Assembly (NCBI RefSeq): GCF_019052805.1
Contig: NZ_JAHQRJ010000001.1
Coordinates: forward strand, 3,286,001-3,350,000
Source: Noviherbaspirillum sp. L7-7A
GTDB taxonomy: Bacteria; Pseudomonadota; Gammaproteobacteria; Burkholderiales; Burkholderiaceae_D
Reading direction: 5' to 3'
DNA length: 64,000 nt
In this document: in pieces, positions 24,994 to 53,881 of the stretch
Layout of the letters: each line of letters starts with the position of its first letter
How positions within the stretch are numbered: position 1 is the first letter of the stretch
Notes under the pieces: model-generated
The model's input: only the letters and a program-made list of their open reading frames with translations
Told to the model about the DNA's origin: nothing
Database searches by the model: none
Program-made: the position numbers and the translations under genes

Positions 24994-25011
24994 TTTTTCC
25001 CAAGGATACGC

Positions 25012-25272
25012 ATGGCCATTCTCATCATCGTCTACGATCTTAGCCCAGTCCCGACTTCCTATCATGATCTGGTCAGTGCGATAAAAAAATTTCCTTGGGC
25101 AAAGTTGTCAGCAAGCAGCTACGCAATTTCTACCAACTTCACTCCCCAAACCGTGTTCAATCAGTTGCGTCCATTGATGGACAGCTCAAGCAACCTGTAC
25201 GTCATTACGGGGCATAAGCCCTTTACTGGCTATGGTCCGGAAGCTGTCAATAAATGGCTGCAACAGATGTAA
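25012..25272 (+). CDS. SinR/Cas2-like small protein
   Basis: An 86-residue protein. It begins MAILIIVYDLSPVPTSYHDL, a first beta strand ending in Tyr-Asp-Leu as in Cas2 and 'SinR family' ferredoxin-fold proteins. It continues with an alpha helix (DLVSAIKKFPWAKLSASSYAI), a strand-turn NFTPQTVFNQLRPLMDSSSNLYVITG and a C-terminal helix. AAGGA (25002-25006) precedes the ATG. No cas1 or CRISPR array is near, so it is a solitary Cas2-fold protein; VapD-like nuclease or toxin roles are possible but not shown. Base composition is AT-richer than the core genes. Confidence 0.6.
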   Translation: MAILIIVYDLSPVPTSYHDLVSAIKKFPWAKLSASSYAISTNFTPQTVFNQLRPLMDSSSNLYVITGHKPFTGYGPEAVNKWLQQM

Positions 25273-25535
25273 AGGCGGCGAAGACCGTCGCTAGTCAATA
25301 CTCAAGTTCATAAGTCCAACTCGCAGCAGGAATTACCAACACTAATGCCTAGAAGGGAGCAACAGGGAGTTTCACCAGCAACACGGAAGCGCCATCTTTC
25401 TCCAAAAATCCAGGTTTTTTCAAGCGATAATCCAGTTCCCTTCTTTCAGTGCAAGCGCGACAGGCATTGTGCAACTCGCCAGATAACAAGCAGTCTGTCA
25501 TGTCTGAAGCTAGCCTACCTGCCTCTGGAGCTGCC

Positions 25536-25775
25536 ATGTATATGGTTTACTGGACTGAGATAGCCGACGAAACCAGAATCCCTTACCAGGAACTATTTCC
25601 TCCATCCGATCTGCGCGCTGCACTGGAATTCATGGAAAAACTGCGCCAAAGGCAACGTGCGGGAGAATCGGTTTGTTTTGTTGTGATGTCTTCGGAAAAT
25701 CCGGATTCGGTGGGGCATGCTGGCGCAGCCGACCCGCCTCCGGATTATAAGTGGATGAAAAGAAGAAAACAGTAA
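25536..25775 (+). CDS. Small hypothetical protein
   Basis: A 79-residue protein starting MYMVYWTEIADETRIPYQEL, with a helix FPPSDLRAALEFMEKLRQRQR and a strand SVCFVVMSSENPDSV, ending in a basic tail (KRRKQ). GGAG (25527-25530) supports the ATG at 25536 over an upstream in-frame ATG at 25500. I do not recognise a function. It lies just before the broken tpsA gene, tail to tail. Confidence 0.6.
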   Translation: MYMVYWTEIADETRIPYQELFPPSDLRAALEFMEKLRQRQRAGESVCFVVMSSENPDSVGHAGAADPPPDYKWMKRRKQ

Positions 25776-25812
25776 GCGAATGATGAGCTTGTCTGAACTG
25801 GCTATTCGTTCC

Positions 25813-27983
25813 TTATCGTGTTAGTTCAATCGGCAAATTCATTCCGTCATTTTCGAGGGATAAACTAACTGTATTCTTCATTTTCCTCGTTTTTGACCGC
25901 GTCCGATACTCTTCATCTTTGTCAACGGTCGCCCAAACAAAAAAGTTTTCCGATTTGCTATCACTATTCACTGGCTTGGAACCGGATGGTGGTGTCCTGG
26001 AATTGCTTTGATTACCGGCATCGGCAGTATTGTTGGTGTTTCCGCTATTTTCGCCTTTACCACCAGGATCAATACTGACGTTTCCAGGTTCACCTGCTCC
26101 TTTACCCGCTAGCTCCCCGGACGAAGGGGTGGAATCGTTTGAAACTGGCAAATCCGTGTTTCCGGCTGGCTTGCCTGGATCCGCTGGAGGTGTTGTTGGT
26201 GACGCAGGGTCTGGTTTACCAGACGGATTGGATGGGCTAGTTCCCGGATCTTGAGTCGACGGTTTCTCGCGAATTAAACCACTGCTGCTTGACTTAACGA
26301 TTTGATAGTTTTCAGTAACATTTTTTCCTTCAGCATTAATGATCTGAACCTCACCTACTTGTAAGGTTCGGTTTCCAGGCACATTTGAATCAAATGCCTG
26401 GCGCGCTGTCATCACATCACCTTCCACAAGCCCCATATTGCCGCTGTTGTAATTCTTAGAAATTTGCGGTGTTAGAGAAGAGGTAATCGATTCATCAAAC
26501 TGTTTAGACTCAGGGCTTGCTTCAACAAGAATCGGCCTGGCGTAGATTTTTACCGAAGCTTGCTGATCAATAATCGGATTTTCAAGATAATAGCCTTGCT
26601 GATCTGACCAGAATTTCTTTTGATTTTTATACGAAATTTCACCAACGTTCATCAGGCTGTTAAAATTAGGGTCAGAAGTGGAATATAGATGTTTCGAATC
26701 TACTGCGTTTAAATCAGAGTAGAGTAATTTTGGTTGGACCCGGACCGCTACACCGTCGTAGGCTTTCGTCACATTTGCATCAACTGATAAAATTTCCAGG
26801 GGCTTGAGAAAAGACTTTAGCAGCGGAAAGGTATAACCGTCATAGCGCGTCCAAGTCTCGTCAAAATCGAAATTCAACTTTGCATTCTTGAGTGCCGATG
26901 CACTTAACTGGCCGTTTTCCGCATAGCTGGTGCCATTACCTGGATCATAAACAAATGCATTTGTTTTTCCTTTTCCATCCGTGGTGTAATAAGCATTGGT
27001 AATTTTTCCACTATTCATTCCTGCAATGCCATTTTTTGAATTATTCCATAGTGCATAAGCGCTATCAATTTTTCCATCGTTCGTGCCGGCAATCCCACCC
27101 AGCCCTGAACCGAAGAACGACCCTGCCACTGATGCCAGGCTATAGGCGTTTTTGATCTCGCCCATGGATCCATTTTTTCCTGTAATTCCTCCCGCAGAAT
27201 TAGGAGAAATCTCCGAATATCCGGGCTTAACGTCAATGGATACGCTTCCCGTTACGAAGACATTGTGAATATTTCCATTGTTGTGGCCGGCTATTGCGCC
27301 TACCGAGTCATTACCCGTGATGTTGACGTCAACCAGACCAAGGTTTTTGATTTCGCCACTGGAGGAAGAGAACAGGCCAATCTTGCTTCCAATAGGCCTG
27401 TTTATATACAAGTTGGATATAATATGATTCAAGCCGTCAAGCTTGCCCGAAAACTGCTTGACATCATTCAAAGCCAGCGGGATGAATCCTGTGTTGTAGT
27501 TCCATATATCCCTTGGCAAACCGCCAGTGCCCTGATTCCACAACGTGGTCTCGGTCGCATCAATATCACGACCAAGTGCATAATAGCCCGACAGATTCTC
27601 ATTTATCCTTTGCAACTGGCTGACGTTGTTCACCAGCATCCACAAACGATAGGGGCTGGTGATGAAGTTTTCATAAATCCGGTTGTTTCTGAAGCTCTCT
27701 ACATTTGTATAAATGTCGATATCTGCATTATCGGCAGCATTGATCTTTCCAGCTTGTCCAAAGATCAGAGTACCGCTGCTGGTACCGTTGGCGTCTGTAC
27801 GAATTTTCAGCCCGCCGGTGCCTAACTTTACGGAAGCGTTAATCAACACATTTTTTTCAGCTTCTAAATTAAGTTTGTTTTGTCCACTGGATGAGATCGC
27901 ATTATTGATGACAAGATCGCCGCTTTCTACCTGTCTGTTACCCTGAGCTTTCACCGTAATGTTGGTGGTTGACAGATTGCTAT
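25813..27983 (-). pseudogene. C-terminal fragment of TpsA-type filamentous haemagglutinin
   Basis: About 723 codons of a two-partner-secretion exoprotein cut off from its start by an IS. Read leftward it opens NLSTTNITVKAQGNRQVESG, a typical strand just after the TPS domain. GLUG-type repeats follow (VGAIAGHNNGNIHNVFVTGS, AGGITGKNGSMGEIKNAYSL, GGIAGTNDGKIDSAYAL), then an MBG/YDG-type region (VTKAYDGVAVRVQPKL; ILVEASPESKQFDESI). A long Pro/Ser/Gly-rich linker and a short charged end (MNLPIELTR) complete it. An ATG inside the IS (28071) could start an artificial fusion but would lack a signal peptide. Codon use is AT-rich compared with neighbours. Confidence 0.85.
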
Positions 27984-29027
27984 GGCTTTGTTGCGCAAAT
28001 CGGGCAGCCAAGCGCATTGGCAGCAATTCGGGTAGGCTGGGTGCATGAAACCCGCTGCTCGGAAGTACCAAACGACGAACTGGAAAGCCTATAACGCGGC
28101 ATTAAAGGCGCGTGGCTCTCTGCTGATCTGGCTCGATCCCACTATGAACTGGCACGGCCAGGCAAACGGTAAGCGTGGACGAAGTCCAACCTTTAGTGAC
28201 GAAGCCATTCAGTTCTGTCTGAGTATCAAATGCCTGTTCAGCTTGCCGCTACGCCAGGCCATGGGCATGACGCAAAGCTTGCTGCAATTGACAGGCCTCG
28301 ACTGGCCCGTCCCCGACTACAGCACGATAAGCCGCCGGCAAAAGAAATTGCGCGTTGCCATCGAAGTCATGCCCACCACGACCGGCCTGCACCTGCTGGT
28401 CGATAGCACCGGCATCAAGATGCTGGGCGAAGGCGAATGGAAGACCAGGAAGCATGGCGCTGATTACCGCCGCCAATGGCGCAAAGTCCATCTTGGCATT
28501 GATGCTTCCACACTCGAGATTCGCGCGATGGAAGTGACGGACAACAGTATCGGCGATGCGCCTATGTTGCCCAACCTATTGGGTCAGATTCCTCCAGAAG
28601 AGCTGCTCGCCAGCGTCAGTGGTGATGGCGCTTACGATACGAAGGGCTGCCATGAAGCCATCGCACGACGTCAGGCCGATGCCATAATCCCGATCCGGAA
28701 AAATGCCAAGCTATGGAAGATGAATCGCATTGGTGCCACGGCACGAAATGAGATTCTACGAGCGACACGCCGACTGGGCCGAACGATCTGGAAGAAATGG
28801 AGTGGCTATCACCGACGAAGTTTGGTCGAGACTAAGATGCGCTGCTTCAAGCTACTTGGCGAACGCATCATGGCCCGTGACTTTGATCGGCAAGTCGCTG
28901 AATTACAGGTCCGTGCCGCTGTGCTGAATCGCTTTACGCGCCTTGGCACGCCAATTACGGTCGCTATGCCATAAATCCATCTACAGCAAGGTTAACTCGT
29001 CCCTTACTTTATTTCTGCAACAGAGCC
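27984..29027 (+). mobile_element. IS5-family (IS903 group) insertion sequence
   Basis: 1044 bases bounded by imperfect 17-base terminal inverted repeats. The left end is GGCTTTGTTGCGCAAAT (27984-28000), the right end, inverted, is GGCTCTGTTGCAGAAAT (29011-29027); 14 of 17 match. The ends and length agree with IS903 (about 1057 bases, ends starting GGCTTTGTTG). It carries one transposase gene. The 9 bases on each side (GATTGCTAT and CCTGTGGAG) are not a target duplication. It splits a tpsA gene. Confidence 0.92.
28045..28974 (+). CDS. IS903-group transposase
   Basis: A 309-residue DDE transposase of the IS5 family. It opens with the IS903-type TTNWKAYNAALKARGSLLIWLD. The catalytic core shows LLVDSTGIKMLGEGEWKTRKHG (first Asp), VSGDGAYDTKGCHEAI (second Asp) and WSGYHRRSLVETKMRCFK (the Y-(2)-R-(3)-E motif with Glu). 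It appears full length with no frameshift, so the copy may be active. It fills most of the element. Confidence 0.95.
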   Translation: MKPAARKYQTTNWKAYNAALKARGSLLIWLDPTMNWHGQANGKRGRSPTFSDEAIQFCLSIKCLFSLPLRQAMGMTQSLLQLTGLDWPVPDYSTISRRQKKLRVAIEVMPTTTGLHLLVDSTGIKMLGEGEWKTRKHGADYRRQWRKVHLGIDASTLEIRAMEVTDNSIGDAPMLPNLLGQIPPEELLASVSGDGAYDTKGCHEAIARRQADAIIPIRKNAKLWKMNRIGATARNEILRATRRLGRTIWKKWSGYHRRSLVETKMRCFKLLGERIMARDFDRQVAELQVRAAVLNRFTRLGTPITVAMP

Positions 29028-29989
29028 CCTGTGGAGACCCGTGCAGCAGATGCATGGACCGTACCGCCGGGGCCGTCTGTCGCAGATGCATCCAAAGTGC
29101 CATTAAGGTTGACTACGCCGCGCTGGGAATCGGCAAGCAATTCTATTTTGCCTTTTACATTGCTCAATGTTTTTGCTTCAATGACGCCGGTATTATTAAC
29201 TACTGCATGTTTGCCTAAATCGTCCACGCCGTTTGCCACAAGGGAAATCGTACCGCCAGCTGCCTTGATTTTTCCGGAGTTTTCTACAAGAGCATTAGCA
29301 GTTTCCCGATTGATCGCATAACTGATCAGCGAATTTTTGGAAAAATAAACAGCAGCCTGGTCACCGGCACCCATCAGTACTCGCCCTCCTGACGCATCCA
29401 GGTCGCCACTGTTTTTGACTTCATCAGAAAGAAAAACAATATAACCGCCTTCCGCGGCAGTCACAGATCCCGAGTTTTTTACCGAAGTTGGCAGGCTGGA
29501 AGTTTTGGAAAACTGAAAATTTCCATCCATAAAGTTCTTGTCTGATATACCCAGGGTACTGGCTACAATGCCTCCGGCATTAATTTGTGCACCCTCACCC
29601 AACAGCACCCCATTGGGGTTGACAATAAATACCTGGCCATTCGCAGTCAACCTCCCATTAATCAAACTCGCGTCCAGTCCTGTTACGCGGTTCAGTATCA
29701 GGGAAGAACTTGAAGGCTGAATGAAGTTGACCGTTTCTCCCGATGCGATGCCAAACTGCTGCCAGTTAATGATAGCCTTGTCAGTCGCCTGCCTGATCTC
29801 CATGCCACGGTGGTTGTTAACGACATCAATAGAACCCGAAGCAATTAAGGGACCTTGTGGTAACGCGCTTGCATTCGACGTGTAAAGCGATGCAAAAGCC
29901 AGAAAAATGGGCATTCTAAAACTCTGGTTTTTTTTTGTGGTTTTTATTTTTCTTGCGTTATTTTTTTTAAAAGCGCCTTTCTTTTTCAT
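29028..29989 (-). pseudogene. N-terminal fragment of TpsA-type filamentous haemagglutinin
   Basis: The 5' portion (about 320 codons) of the same exoprotein. A basic N-terminus and signal peptide (MKKKGAFKKNNARK..., cleavage near SNASA-LP) lead into the TPS secretion domain: DKAIINWQQFGIASGETVNF, LNRVTGLDASLINGRL, QVFIVNPNGVLLGEGAQINA with the NPNG motif, then beta-helix repeats (VKNSGSVTAAEGGYIVFLS). At the IS junction the frame runs into TAA inside the element. The start ATG at 29989 is preceded by AAGGAG. No tpsB transporter gene is present in the window. Confidence 0.88.
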
Positions 29990-30206
29990 GATGTTTCTCC
30001 TTAATAAGGACGAGGATGATGAAACCGTTGTTCGTCCGAATTTAAGTTCTTACTTCTAAGGCAAGAACAATCATTAGCTTCAAAAAACTTAAAGACCTCT
30101 TTATAGAACGGGTAACCGATTATTGGAGATCAATATTCCGATCATCGTTTATACTGATTGCTTGTCGGTACCATAAGTATTGAATCGCGATTTAAAGGGA
30201 ACATGA

Positions 30207-36204: not shown

Positions 36205-36217
36205 CCATGCTCCGCGA

Positions 36218-36260
36218 TGTGGATAAGGCTTTGGATAAGCTGTGCAGCTTGTGGGGATAA
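36218..36260 (-). promoter_or_regulatory. Three consecutive DnaA-type boxes
   Basis: TGTGGATAA (36218), TTTGGATAA (36230) and TGGGGATAA (36252) all point the same way within 43 bases; the first is exact and the others differ at one position each from the 9-mer consensus. Confidence 0.65.
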
Positions 36261-36373
36261 AACCGTCTTTGCGCCGGACAGGATTCTTGTACAGAATCGC
36301 CCACTGCAAAATACAGGGCTTATGCAGGATTTATGAAATTTCCAAGTGGTTGATTTCATGAATTTTTTTATTG

Positions 36374-36382
36374 TTATCCACA
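36374..36382 (+). promoter_or_regulatory. DnaA box (exact) in an AT-rich run
   Basis: An exact TTATCCACA sits inside AATTTTTTTATTG...CAATAATGG, opposite in direction to the three boxes at 36218-36260. Confidence 0.65.
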
Positions 36383-36479
36383 ATAATGGGCATGCGTTAA
36401 CAACTACTACTATTCGTATACAAAAACCTTGATTAAATAAACAGCGCAAACCTGAAGCAGGGGGGGTTAACAAACGGCC

Positions 36480-37250
36480 TCAAGGCAGCAGAGCAGACAA
36501 CCTGCGTATCGTATGAAATGCGTAGACAGAAGCGACGTGCCGAATAAAGGAAAGAAAATCGACTGCAGAGTCTTCGTTGGCGTTGTCAGAGATGGTGCGA
36601 ATCACGGAAAACGGTATGCCAAATTCATGGCACACCTGGGCAACCGCAGCGCCTTCCATCTCGACAGCCAGTAAATCCGGAAAATCCCTCTTTAATTCTT
36701 GCAGTCTTGATGCGCTGGCAATGAATTCATCGCCGCTGGCAATCAGTCCCTGATGTAGGCGGGGCTGATGCAGATTGAAATTCGCGCGGTTTTCCTCGGA
36801 TATCTCAGTCAGCAAATCCTGGTCCAGGAAATTGGTGGCTGCTTCCAGCAGATAACGATTAATTTGCGCATCGCTTGGAAATCGGGAAAGCCCGGTGAGT
36901 GGAATTTCAAATCGCGGAAAAAGCGGGCGCGTGTCCATGTCGTGTTGCACAAGCTCGCTTGCAATAACGATGTCGCCAACCCGCACTTCGGGGTCGGCAG
37001 ATCCGGCAACGCCGGTAAATAACAGATGAGAAACGTCGAAACGCTCGATCAACATGGCAGCTGTTGCAGCTGAAGCAACTTTTCCCAATCTGGACAAGAC
37101 GCAGATGCAATCGATTCCCCACAAATTGCCGTGGACATAGTCTCTCTTGCCACGGGTAAAAATTTTTCCATCGCGCATTTGGGTGATCAGGCCTGCCTGT
37201 TCTTCCTGAAGCGCGCTGATGATGCCAAGTCGGTACGGTTTTCTGTCCAT
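36480..37250 (-). CDS. mtnN: 5'-methylthioadenosine/S-adenosylhomocysteine nucleosidase
   Basis: Cleaves adenine from MTA and SAH, recycling methionine and by-products of quorum-signal synthesis. It is 256 residues. Catalytic residues can be placed: Glu in IISALQEEQAGL, Glu in AVEMEGAAVAQVCH and Asp in IRTISDNANEDS. The MTAN pattern LLFTGVAGSADPEVRVGDIVIASE is also present. It is slightly longer than E. coli Pfs (232). The gene stands alone between two AT-rich segments with DnaA boxes. Its promoter is not obvious. Confidence 0.93.
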   Translation of the reverse strand: MDRKPYRLGIISALQEEQAGLITQMRDGKIFTRGKRDYVHGNLWGIDCICVLSRLGKVASAATAAMLIERFDVSHLLFTGVAGSADPEVRVGDIVIASELVQHDMDTRPLFPRFEIPLTGLSRFPSDAQINRYLLEAATNFLDQDLLTEISEENRANFNLHQPRLHQGLIASGDEFIASASRLQELKRDFPDLLAVEMEGAAVAQVCHEFGIPFSVIRTISDNANEDSAVDFLSFIRHVASVYAFHTIRRLSALLP

Positions 37251-37546
37251 TTTTTCTCTTTCAAAGGCCCGGAAGCCGCATAAAACCGCGTATCTGGTTT
37301 TATCTTAAATAGCTGTATACAAATCTAGTAATAGTGTTAACCGGTGATTTTTTCTGTGAGTAAGTCTCGTAACGCCTTTTAAATCAATTACTTGAAACGG
37401 GGATAAAGGCTGGATAAGCCCTGTATGTTAACGTGATAGCTTCTGAACAAAAATCGGAAGTTTTGGATATCCGCGCTTATGCACAAGCCGGCAACCGGAT
37501 ATCCATAGGTTTGTCCACAGTTCAAGTGATTGAAATTTAAGGAAAT
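37251..37546. other. AT-rich intergenic region with IHF-type site and DnaA-like boxes (candidate oriC, right part)
   Basis: 296 AT-rich bases between mtnN and the LysR gene. Seen are an exact IHF consensus AATCAATTACTTG (WATCAA-N4-TTR) at 37382-37394; weak DnaA-like CGGGGATAA (37398) and GCTGGATAA (37409); TTATGCACA at 37477-37485 and TTGTCCACA at 37511-37519 (one mismatch each); and GTTAAC at 37336 and 37427. No gene was recognised. The mix of DnaA-like boxes, an IHF site and AT-rich DNA is the pattern of bacterial origins. Confidence 0.55.
37382..37394 (+). promoter_or_regulatory. IHF-type binding site
   Basis: AATCAATTACTTG fits WATCAANNNNTTR at every fixed position and is followed within 25 bases by two weak DnaA-like 9-mers. 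Confidence 0.45.
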
Positions 37547-53865: not shown

Positions 53866-53881
53866 TGTTTCACGTGAAACA
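53866..53881. promoter_or_regulatory. parS site 2 (perfect)
   Basis: TGTTTCACGTGAAACA, identical to the chromosomal parS consensus, 35 bases after site 1 and upstream of mnmG. Confidence 0.97.

Follow-up and report, generated by a model that had tools for sequence, protein, structure and literature searches.

Where does replication of the chromosome of Noviherbaspirillum sp. L7-7A begin? The question is raised by the two intergenic gaps that flank mtnN in the 64-kb stretch of contig C1 analysed here (the window), because an earlier sequence-only reading had placed initiation there, with mtnN inside or beside the origin. Our follow-up points to the same place with a more specific architecture: oriC is very probably a pair of diverged copies of a single module, set on either side of mtnN and facing one another, a conclusion drawn from the DNA sequence. 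The anatomy, conservation and copy number of that module are directly observed, as is its place relative to the skew of related chromosomes and to a dif-like site in this one.

The elements of the two gaps are collected in Table 1. The two exact DnaA boxes, the four boxes with one mismatch and the four GTTAAC sites (36396, 36466, 37336 and 37427) that had been reported from the sequence were all located, and the single exact IHF consensus claimed there exists but proved to be one of two, the window as a whole containing five. The gaps are AT-rich as described (58% and 61% AT, versus 45% in the dnaA-rpmH gap), and the dnaA-rpmH gap was rightly called box-poor, with one exact box (4165). NCBIfam confirmed dnaA, dnaN and mtnN (-) as well as mnmG and mmsA (+). 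The 1342 bp contain six boxes that match exactly or with one mismatch, a density beyond chance: among 200 dinucleotide-shuffled versions of the window the maximum was three. Exact boxes number 24 genome-wide. The lowest-stability 50 bp of the window begins at 37291, in the module 2 tract of the second gap, and the AT-rich tract of module 1 is among the lowest 0.086%. GATC is absent from both modules, no promoter-like sites were found at 35.8-38 kb of the window, and no Rfam family matched within its 64 kb. Elsewhere in the window, the segment at 25000-30000 has low GC (45-51%) and carries an IS5-family transposase together with an ORF that encodes a filamentous-haemagglutinin N-terminal domain, and was probably acquired; on C2, a Guanidine-I riboswitch lies at L003:1379-1492, near the start of that second contig.

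Table 1. Features of the mtnN gaps and the parS-like site, in window coordinates
Feature	Position	Strand	Remark
Origin module 1	36218..36450	+	profile match 36218-36452
Outer DnaA box, module 1, exact TTATCCACA	36218..36226	-	motif scan
DnaA box, 1 mismatch (TTATCCAAA), module 1	36230..36238	-	motif scan
DnaA box, 1 mismatch (TTATCCCCA), module 1	36252..36260	-	motif scan
Exact IHF consensus, module 1	36343..36355	-	module 2 has one at the matching place
Inner DnaA box, module 1, exact TTATCCACA	36374..36382	+	
Putative unwinding element 1, 71% AT	36396..36450	+	GTTAAC, GTATAC (36416), AT-rich tract
CTACTACTA, DnaA-trio-like, inside putative unwinding element 1	36404..36412	+	
mtnN, MTA/SAH nucleosidase	36480..37250	-	between modules 1 and 2
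Origin module 2, inverted	37286..37519	-	profile match 37519-37285
Putative unwinding element 2	37291..37345	-	GTTAAC 37336-37341, GTATAC 37315
CTATTACTA, inside putative unwinding element 2	37326..37334	-	
Inner DnaA box, module 2, weak: TTACTCACA, 2 mismatches	37355..37363	-	
Exact IHF consensus, module 2	37382..37394	+	
DnaA box, 1 mismatch (TTATGCACA), module 2	37477..37485	+	
Outer DnaA box, module 2, 1 mismatch (TTGTCCACA)	37511..37519	+	
parS-like site, sole one in genome (at most 1 mismatch)	53866..53881	.	16 kb from modules

The module is a conserved unit of ~235 bp, defined from an alignment of 24 copies from 12 genomes. Around the mtnN genes of relatives, an outer TGTGGATAA and an inner TTATCCACA recur ~157 bp apart at a fixed spacing. 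The order of elements runs from the outer box through further boxes, a T-rich stretch, a CTTATGCA-like site and an IHF-like TAANNNNTTGAT to the inner box, which is followed by a spacer, GTTAAC, CTA repeats and an AT-rich tract. The window carries this unit twice in inverted orientation, the AT-rich sides facing mtnN, and each copy has three CTA-type trios in a run that lies 21 nt (module 1) or 20 nt (module 2) from the inner box. Modules 1 and 2 are 53% identical to each other, versus 67% and 66% to their counterparts in G003. In a FastTree phylogeny of the 24 modules, copies 1 and 2 form separate clades across this genome and its congeners G002 and G003, and both copies of one genome cluster together in G005, G015, G020 and G025. 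An exact IHF consensus is not universal in the modules, since it occurs in only 59 of 150 aligned copies, against 2 of the 150 for a reversed control, these being the best 150 of 178 matches and coming from 80 of the at least 118 stretches described below. Of the 41 aligned copies that fail the pattern used to find those loci, the exact inner box is nevertheless present in 39, and two or more trio-like repeats in 37.

Profile R1, a sequence-only model of the module, matches this genome in two places only (E up to 0.01) and is found in 182 of 195 genomes of the family, with two or three matches in 138, one in 44 and none in 13. The boxes noticed in a single genome are thus kept in relatives as a defined module. 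In 30 genomes of one to four contigs, picked by hand for low contig number, strong matches (E <=5e-20) come as two or three at a single locus in every case, none of them beside dnaA, and four extra weak matches (E 0.001-0.006) occur in G180, G195, G129 and G020. A weak match in G195 (C1:1687-1826; 18 bits, E 0.004) lies directly after dnaA and may be what remains of an earlier origin at that position. In relatives, module and dnaA lie as little as ~6 kb apart in G028 and as much as ~719 kb apart in G004 (both if circular), with 19 kb between them in G035.

The named loci were found with a pattern requiring an exact inner box, which gave at least 118 stretches, two of them (L162 and L214) on one contig. 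Among the matches listed, two copies are present in 70 stretches, three in 33 and one in 15; the 88 listed stretches away from ends hold 74 tandem arrangements, 10 single copies and 4 inverted pairs. At a threshold of 40% identity, mtnN was found within 65 of the 118 listed stretches of up to 8 kb and was not found in 53, some of which are incomplete in length. The earlier placement of mtnN inside or beside the origin is apt for this genome; in relatives the units may flank one side of it or lie apart. The 80 listed named records belong to genera that we take to be Oxalobacteraceae (four were looked up and three are so placed) or to Paucimonas (Burkholderiaceae in NCBI), or are MAGs labelled Burkholderiales, Burkholderiaceae or Betaproteobacteria.

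Across the Burkholderiales, the profile matches 155 of 300 genomes, 146 of them outside this family and mostly through weak, single matches. In the 61 best-scoring of these 146 (the top listed matches, down to E 3.1e-8), the match lies within 300 bp of dnaA in 38, or in 43 of 66 when five genomes added by hand after their coordinates had been viewed are included (G371, G340, G231, G236 and G256); for seven of the 23 without dnaA within 300 bp, dnaA is on a different contig. The profile was built from mtnN loci, so its matches next to dnaA in other families strongly support oriC and suggest that the origin moved away from dnaA in this lineage. The same adjacency argues against a reading in which the modules are DnaA-binding control sites of the datA or DARS kind, or a DnaA-regulated promoter region of mtnN. 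Such a role would suit the position of module 2 upstream of mtnN and the presence of mtnN in 65 of the 118 listed stretches, and datA and DARS are likewise marked by DnaA boxes combined with IHF. However, each module includes a CTA run and an AT-rich tract, the modules sit at the skew rise of relatives, and no mtnN was found at 40% identity in the other 53 listed stretches, some of them incomplete; we therefore hold this role to be very improbable.

Strand asymmetry in relatives favours the modules as oriC. GC skew is higher to the right of the module than to the left in 46 of 55 named loci among the matches listed (sign test p 4e-7; random splits of these loci give 61%), with means over these 55 of -0.0216 on the left and +0.0317 on the right; the remaining 63 of the 118 listed stretches were excluded for having a flank below 1.5 kb. 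In all five single-contig relatives sampled, which were hand-picked for few contigs, skew is lower to the left than to the right and crosses zero. With 20 kb per side, the left and right values are -0.063/+0.007 in G195 and -0.041/+0.001 in G030, the right side being barely above zero in both, -0.017/+0.014 in G193 and -0.017/+0.031 in G074; in G206, 10-kb stretches lying ~10 kb off on each side give -0.016/+0.036, and every 1-kb bin at 2.501-2.510 Mb is positive. The rise is located at the modules rather than at dnaA, which in two of the five lies more than 300 kb away. A KOPS switch at the module is absent in G074, G030 and G193, and G195 and G206 have too few sites. Judged by coordinates, dnaA would meet a replication fork coming from the module head-on in several genomes, G074, G193 and G020 among them.

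In this genome, asymmetry switches 60-110 kb to the left of the modules by GC skew, k-mers and KOPS, and not at them. Cumulative GC skew over C1 3.09-3.55 Mb reaches its minimum at 3,247,334, or at 3,212,361 with rRNA operons masked, and thus falls outside the 35-39 kb of the window where the sequence-only reading had expected it. The k-mer minimum lies at 3,259,384, with a second near 3.290 Mb at dnaA (rRNA unmasked), and KOPS switch at 3.231-3.2605 Mb (rRNA masked). KOPS give a clean signal at the two ends, with 1 F : 19 R over 3.09-3.23 Mb and 9 F : 0 R over 3.482-3.55 Mb; between these, F predominates over 3.23-3.36 Mb (13 F : 2 R) and the interval 3.36-3.482 Mb is a mixture of 7 F : 8 R. 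The 8 F : 2 R at 3.230-3.322 Mb is the wrong polarity for an origin at the modules. We dropped KOPS as an origin locator, given the mixed interval here and the lack of a switch in three of five relatives, and also strand-corrected GC3 skew, whose signal here is too weak, all ten intervals spanning zero.

These switches to the left of the modules, together with the second k-mer minimum, would fit a working origin on the dnaA side, either in the gap adjoining dnaA or at C1 3.23-3.26 Mb where asymmetry switches. Each gap flanking dnaA has one exact box, and the profile adjoins dnaA in many other families. Yet 3.24-3.265 Mb offers four scattered one-mismatch boxes and no cluster, the profile matches neither there nor at dnaA, and relatives show their skew rise at the modules and not at dnaA. 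The unmasked GC-skew minimum, moreover, coincides with an rRNA operon leader (3,247,430). An origin on the dnaA side is, we think, improbable. Because of this leader, the shallowness of the masked curve and the mixed KOPS, the switch in this genome is not to be trusted outright, and it is further doubtful because of an inverted block, the near-zero GC3 skew and the lack of a module there. The block, ~138 kb long (C1 3,248.7-3,387.4 kb), is inverted relative to G003:C10 and has one end ~1.3 kb from an rRNA operon; its midpoint falls ~5 kb from the modules, which hints at an inversion symmetric about the origin, although as a single event it is not counted as proof. The off-module skew signal in this genome is thus weak, and both rRNA operons and rearrangement confound it. 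Nevertheless, since asymmetry here does switch away from the modules, we keep our confidence in oriC at mtnN short of near-certainty. Other points that weigh against it are the missing KOPS switch in three relatives, the weak inner box of module 2, the 20-21 nt between inner box and CTA run, which exceeds published spacers, and the family genomes with a single match (44) or none (13).

A different marker lies on the far side of the chromosome. The one dif-like site in this genome (C1 1,329,252; three mismatches to the pattern used) has its antipode 1.9 kb from the module pair, if C1 is circular and the site is dif. Measured from that antipode, the dnaA-rpmH gap and the hemE-priA gap are each 34 kb away and the switches in k-mers, KOPS and GC skew 65-77 kb, which counts against an origin at any of these. 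When the ends of C1 are joined, the sequence across the junction aligns with rRNA leaders from three further places (L073, L018 and L010), and neither C2 nor C3 has rRNA operons at its ends, which fits a circular C1; circularity is not proved, because the cut sits at the start of a repeat shared with the 3.247-Mb operon (L009), like an assembly break. The rRNA operons near the modules are directed away from them: those at 3.222 and 3.247 Mb run leftward, those at 3.474 Mb and at the C1 start rightward. This arrangement favours an origin at the modules, as do their low-stability DNA and the parS-like site 16 kb away. Initiation at mtnN, as originally claimed, is supported by the conserved module, the skew rise in relatives, this antipode and the dnaA-adjacent matches elsewhere.

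The hemE-priA gap, outside the window at C1 3,358,949-3,359,731 (L007:8949-9731), holds another concentration of sites, its 783 bp containing two IHF sites and five boxes with at most one mismatch, of which three are exact. Similar clusters occur in G003, G195 and G030, all three gaps examined, and a second origin adjacent to hemE is proposed for Ralstonia pickettii in the available portion of PMC4403523. If this cluster were the origin, the mtnN modules would be accessory. However, GC skew has no sign change there in G195, G030 or G206, and the module profile has no match there; we consider such an arrangement very improbable and regard the cluster as a candidate DnaA control site or secondary origin.

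If the modules are oriC, DnaA would bind the outer and inner boxes and IHF would bend the DNA between them; a DnaA filament would extend from the inner box over the CTA repeats and open the AT-rich tract, at which helicases would be loaded and from which forks would depart both ways. One or both modules may fire. Escherichia coli oriC is a single unit, rich in GATC and distant from dnaA, with end boxes in opposite orientation, an IHF site and an AT-rich unwinding side. The modules share with it the opposed end boxes, the IHF site, the AT-rich side and the separation from dnaA, but are two inverted units free of GATC. The bipartite origins of B. subtilis and H. pylori likewise consist of two DnaA-box clusters with a gene between them; here, in contrast, the clusters are homologous, each has its own AT-rich tract and CTA run, and the gene is mtnN rather than dnaA. 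We rejected a bipartite origin with one unwinding region, as each cluster has its own candidate unwinding tract. Those bipartite origins are also mentioned in the portion of PMC4403523 referred to above.

Excerpts of PMC8287927 and PMC10721633 describe the BUS as a DnaA box, a spacer and DnaA-trios (3'-GAT-5' on the other strand), the spacer being 10-13 nt with a limit of 16 (PMC8287927). As far as these excerpts go, the modules resemble the BUS in having a box, then CTA repeats (three trios per module), then AT-rich DNA, and differ in their spacer of 20-21 nt and in the two or three such putative units per origin. Two members of the Burkholderiales offer other comparisons. Cupriavidus metallidurans CH34 has a skew transition ~90 kb from dnaA, adjoining 213 nt with three perfect boxes (PMC2864759, in part), and a dnaA-distal origin of Burkholderia cenocepacia has dispersed boxes, repeats, an IHF site and an AT-rich block (PMC4948915, in part). 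Set against those portions of the two accounts, repeated origin units are described only here.

A dnaA-distal origin in the Burkholderiales is thus already reported, and the novelty lies in an origin built from two or three units, diverged and near-complete; search listings of the open-licence literature, with subscription papers and DoriC outside the scope, showed no account of origin units repeated in this way for the family. Bacterial origins are usually regarded as having one unwinding unit. We tentatively suggest, as a possibility with rather less than an even chance, that replication of Oxalobacteraceae chromosomes begins at a composite of two or three homologous oriC units, each of which, near-complete in itself, would be able to melt and load helicase, and that these multiplied after the origin left dnaA and were kept by selection, with unit number and orientation forming part of initiation control. 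The natural variants, tandem or inverted and with or without mtnN between, may show how many units are needed and how two helicases load. The origin of Herbaspirillum seropedicae had been assigned to the dnaA region, according to the available part of PMC3093359. Our results suggest that such an assignment would be wrong for much of the family, H. seropedicae itself lying outside the sample, and the module profile offers a way to locate the candidate origin in draft genomes.
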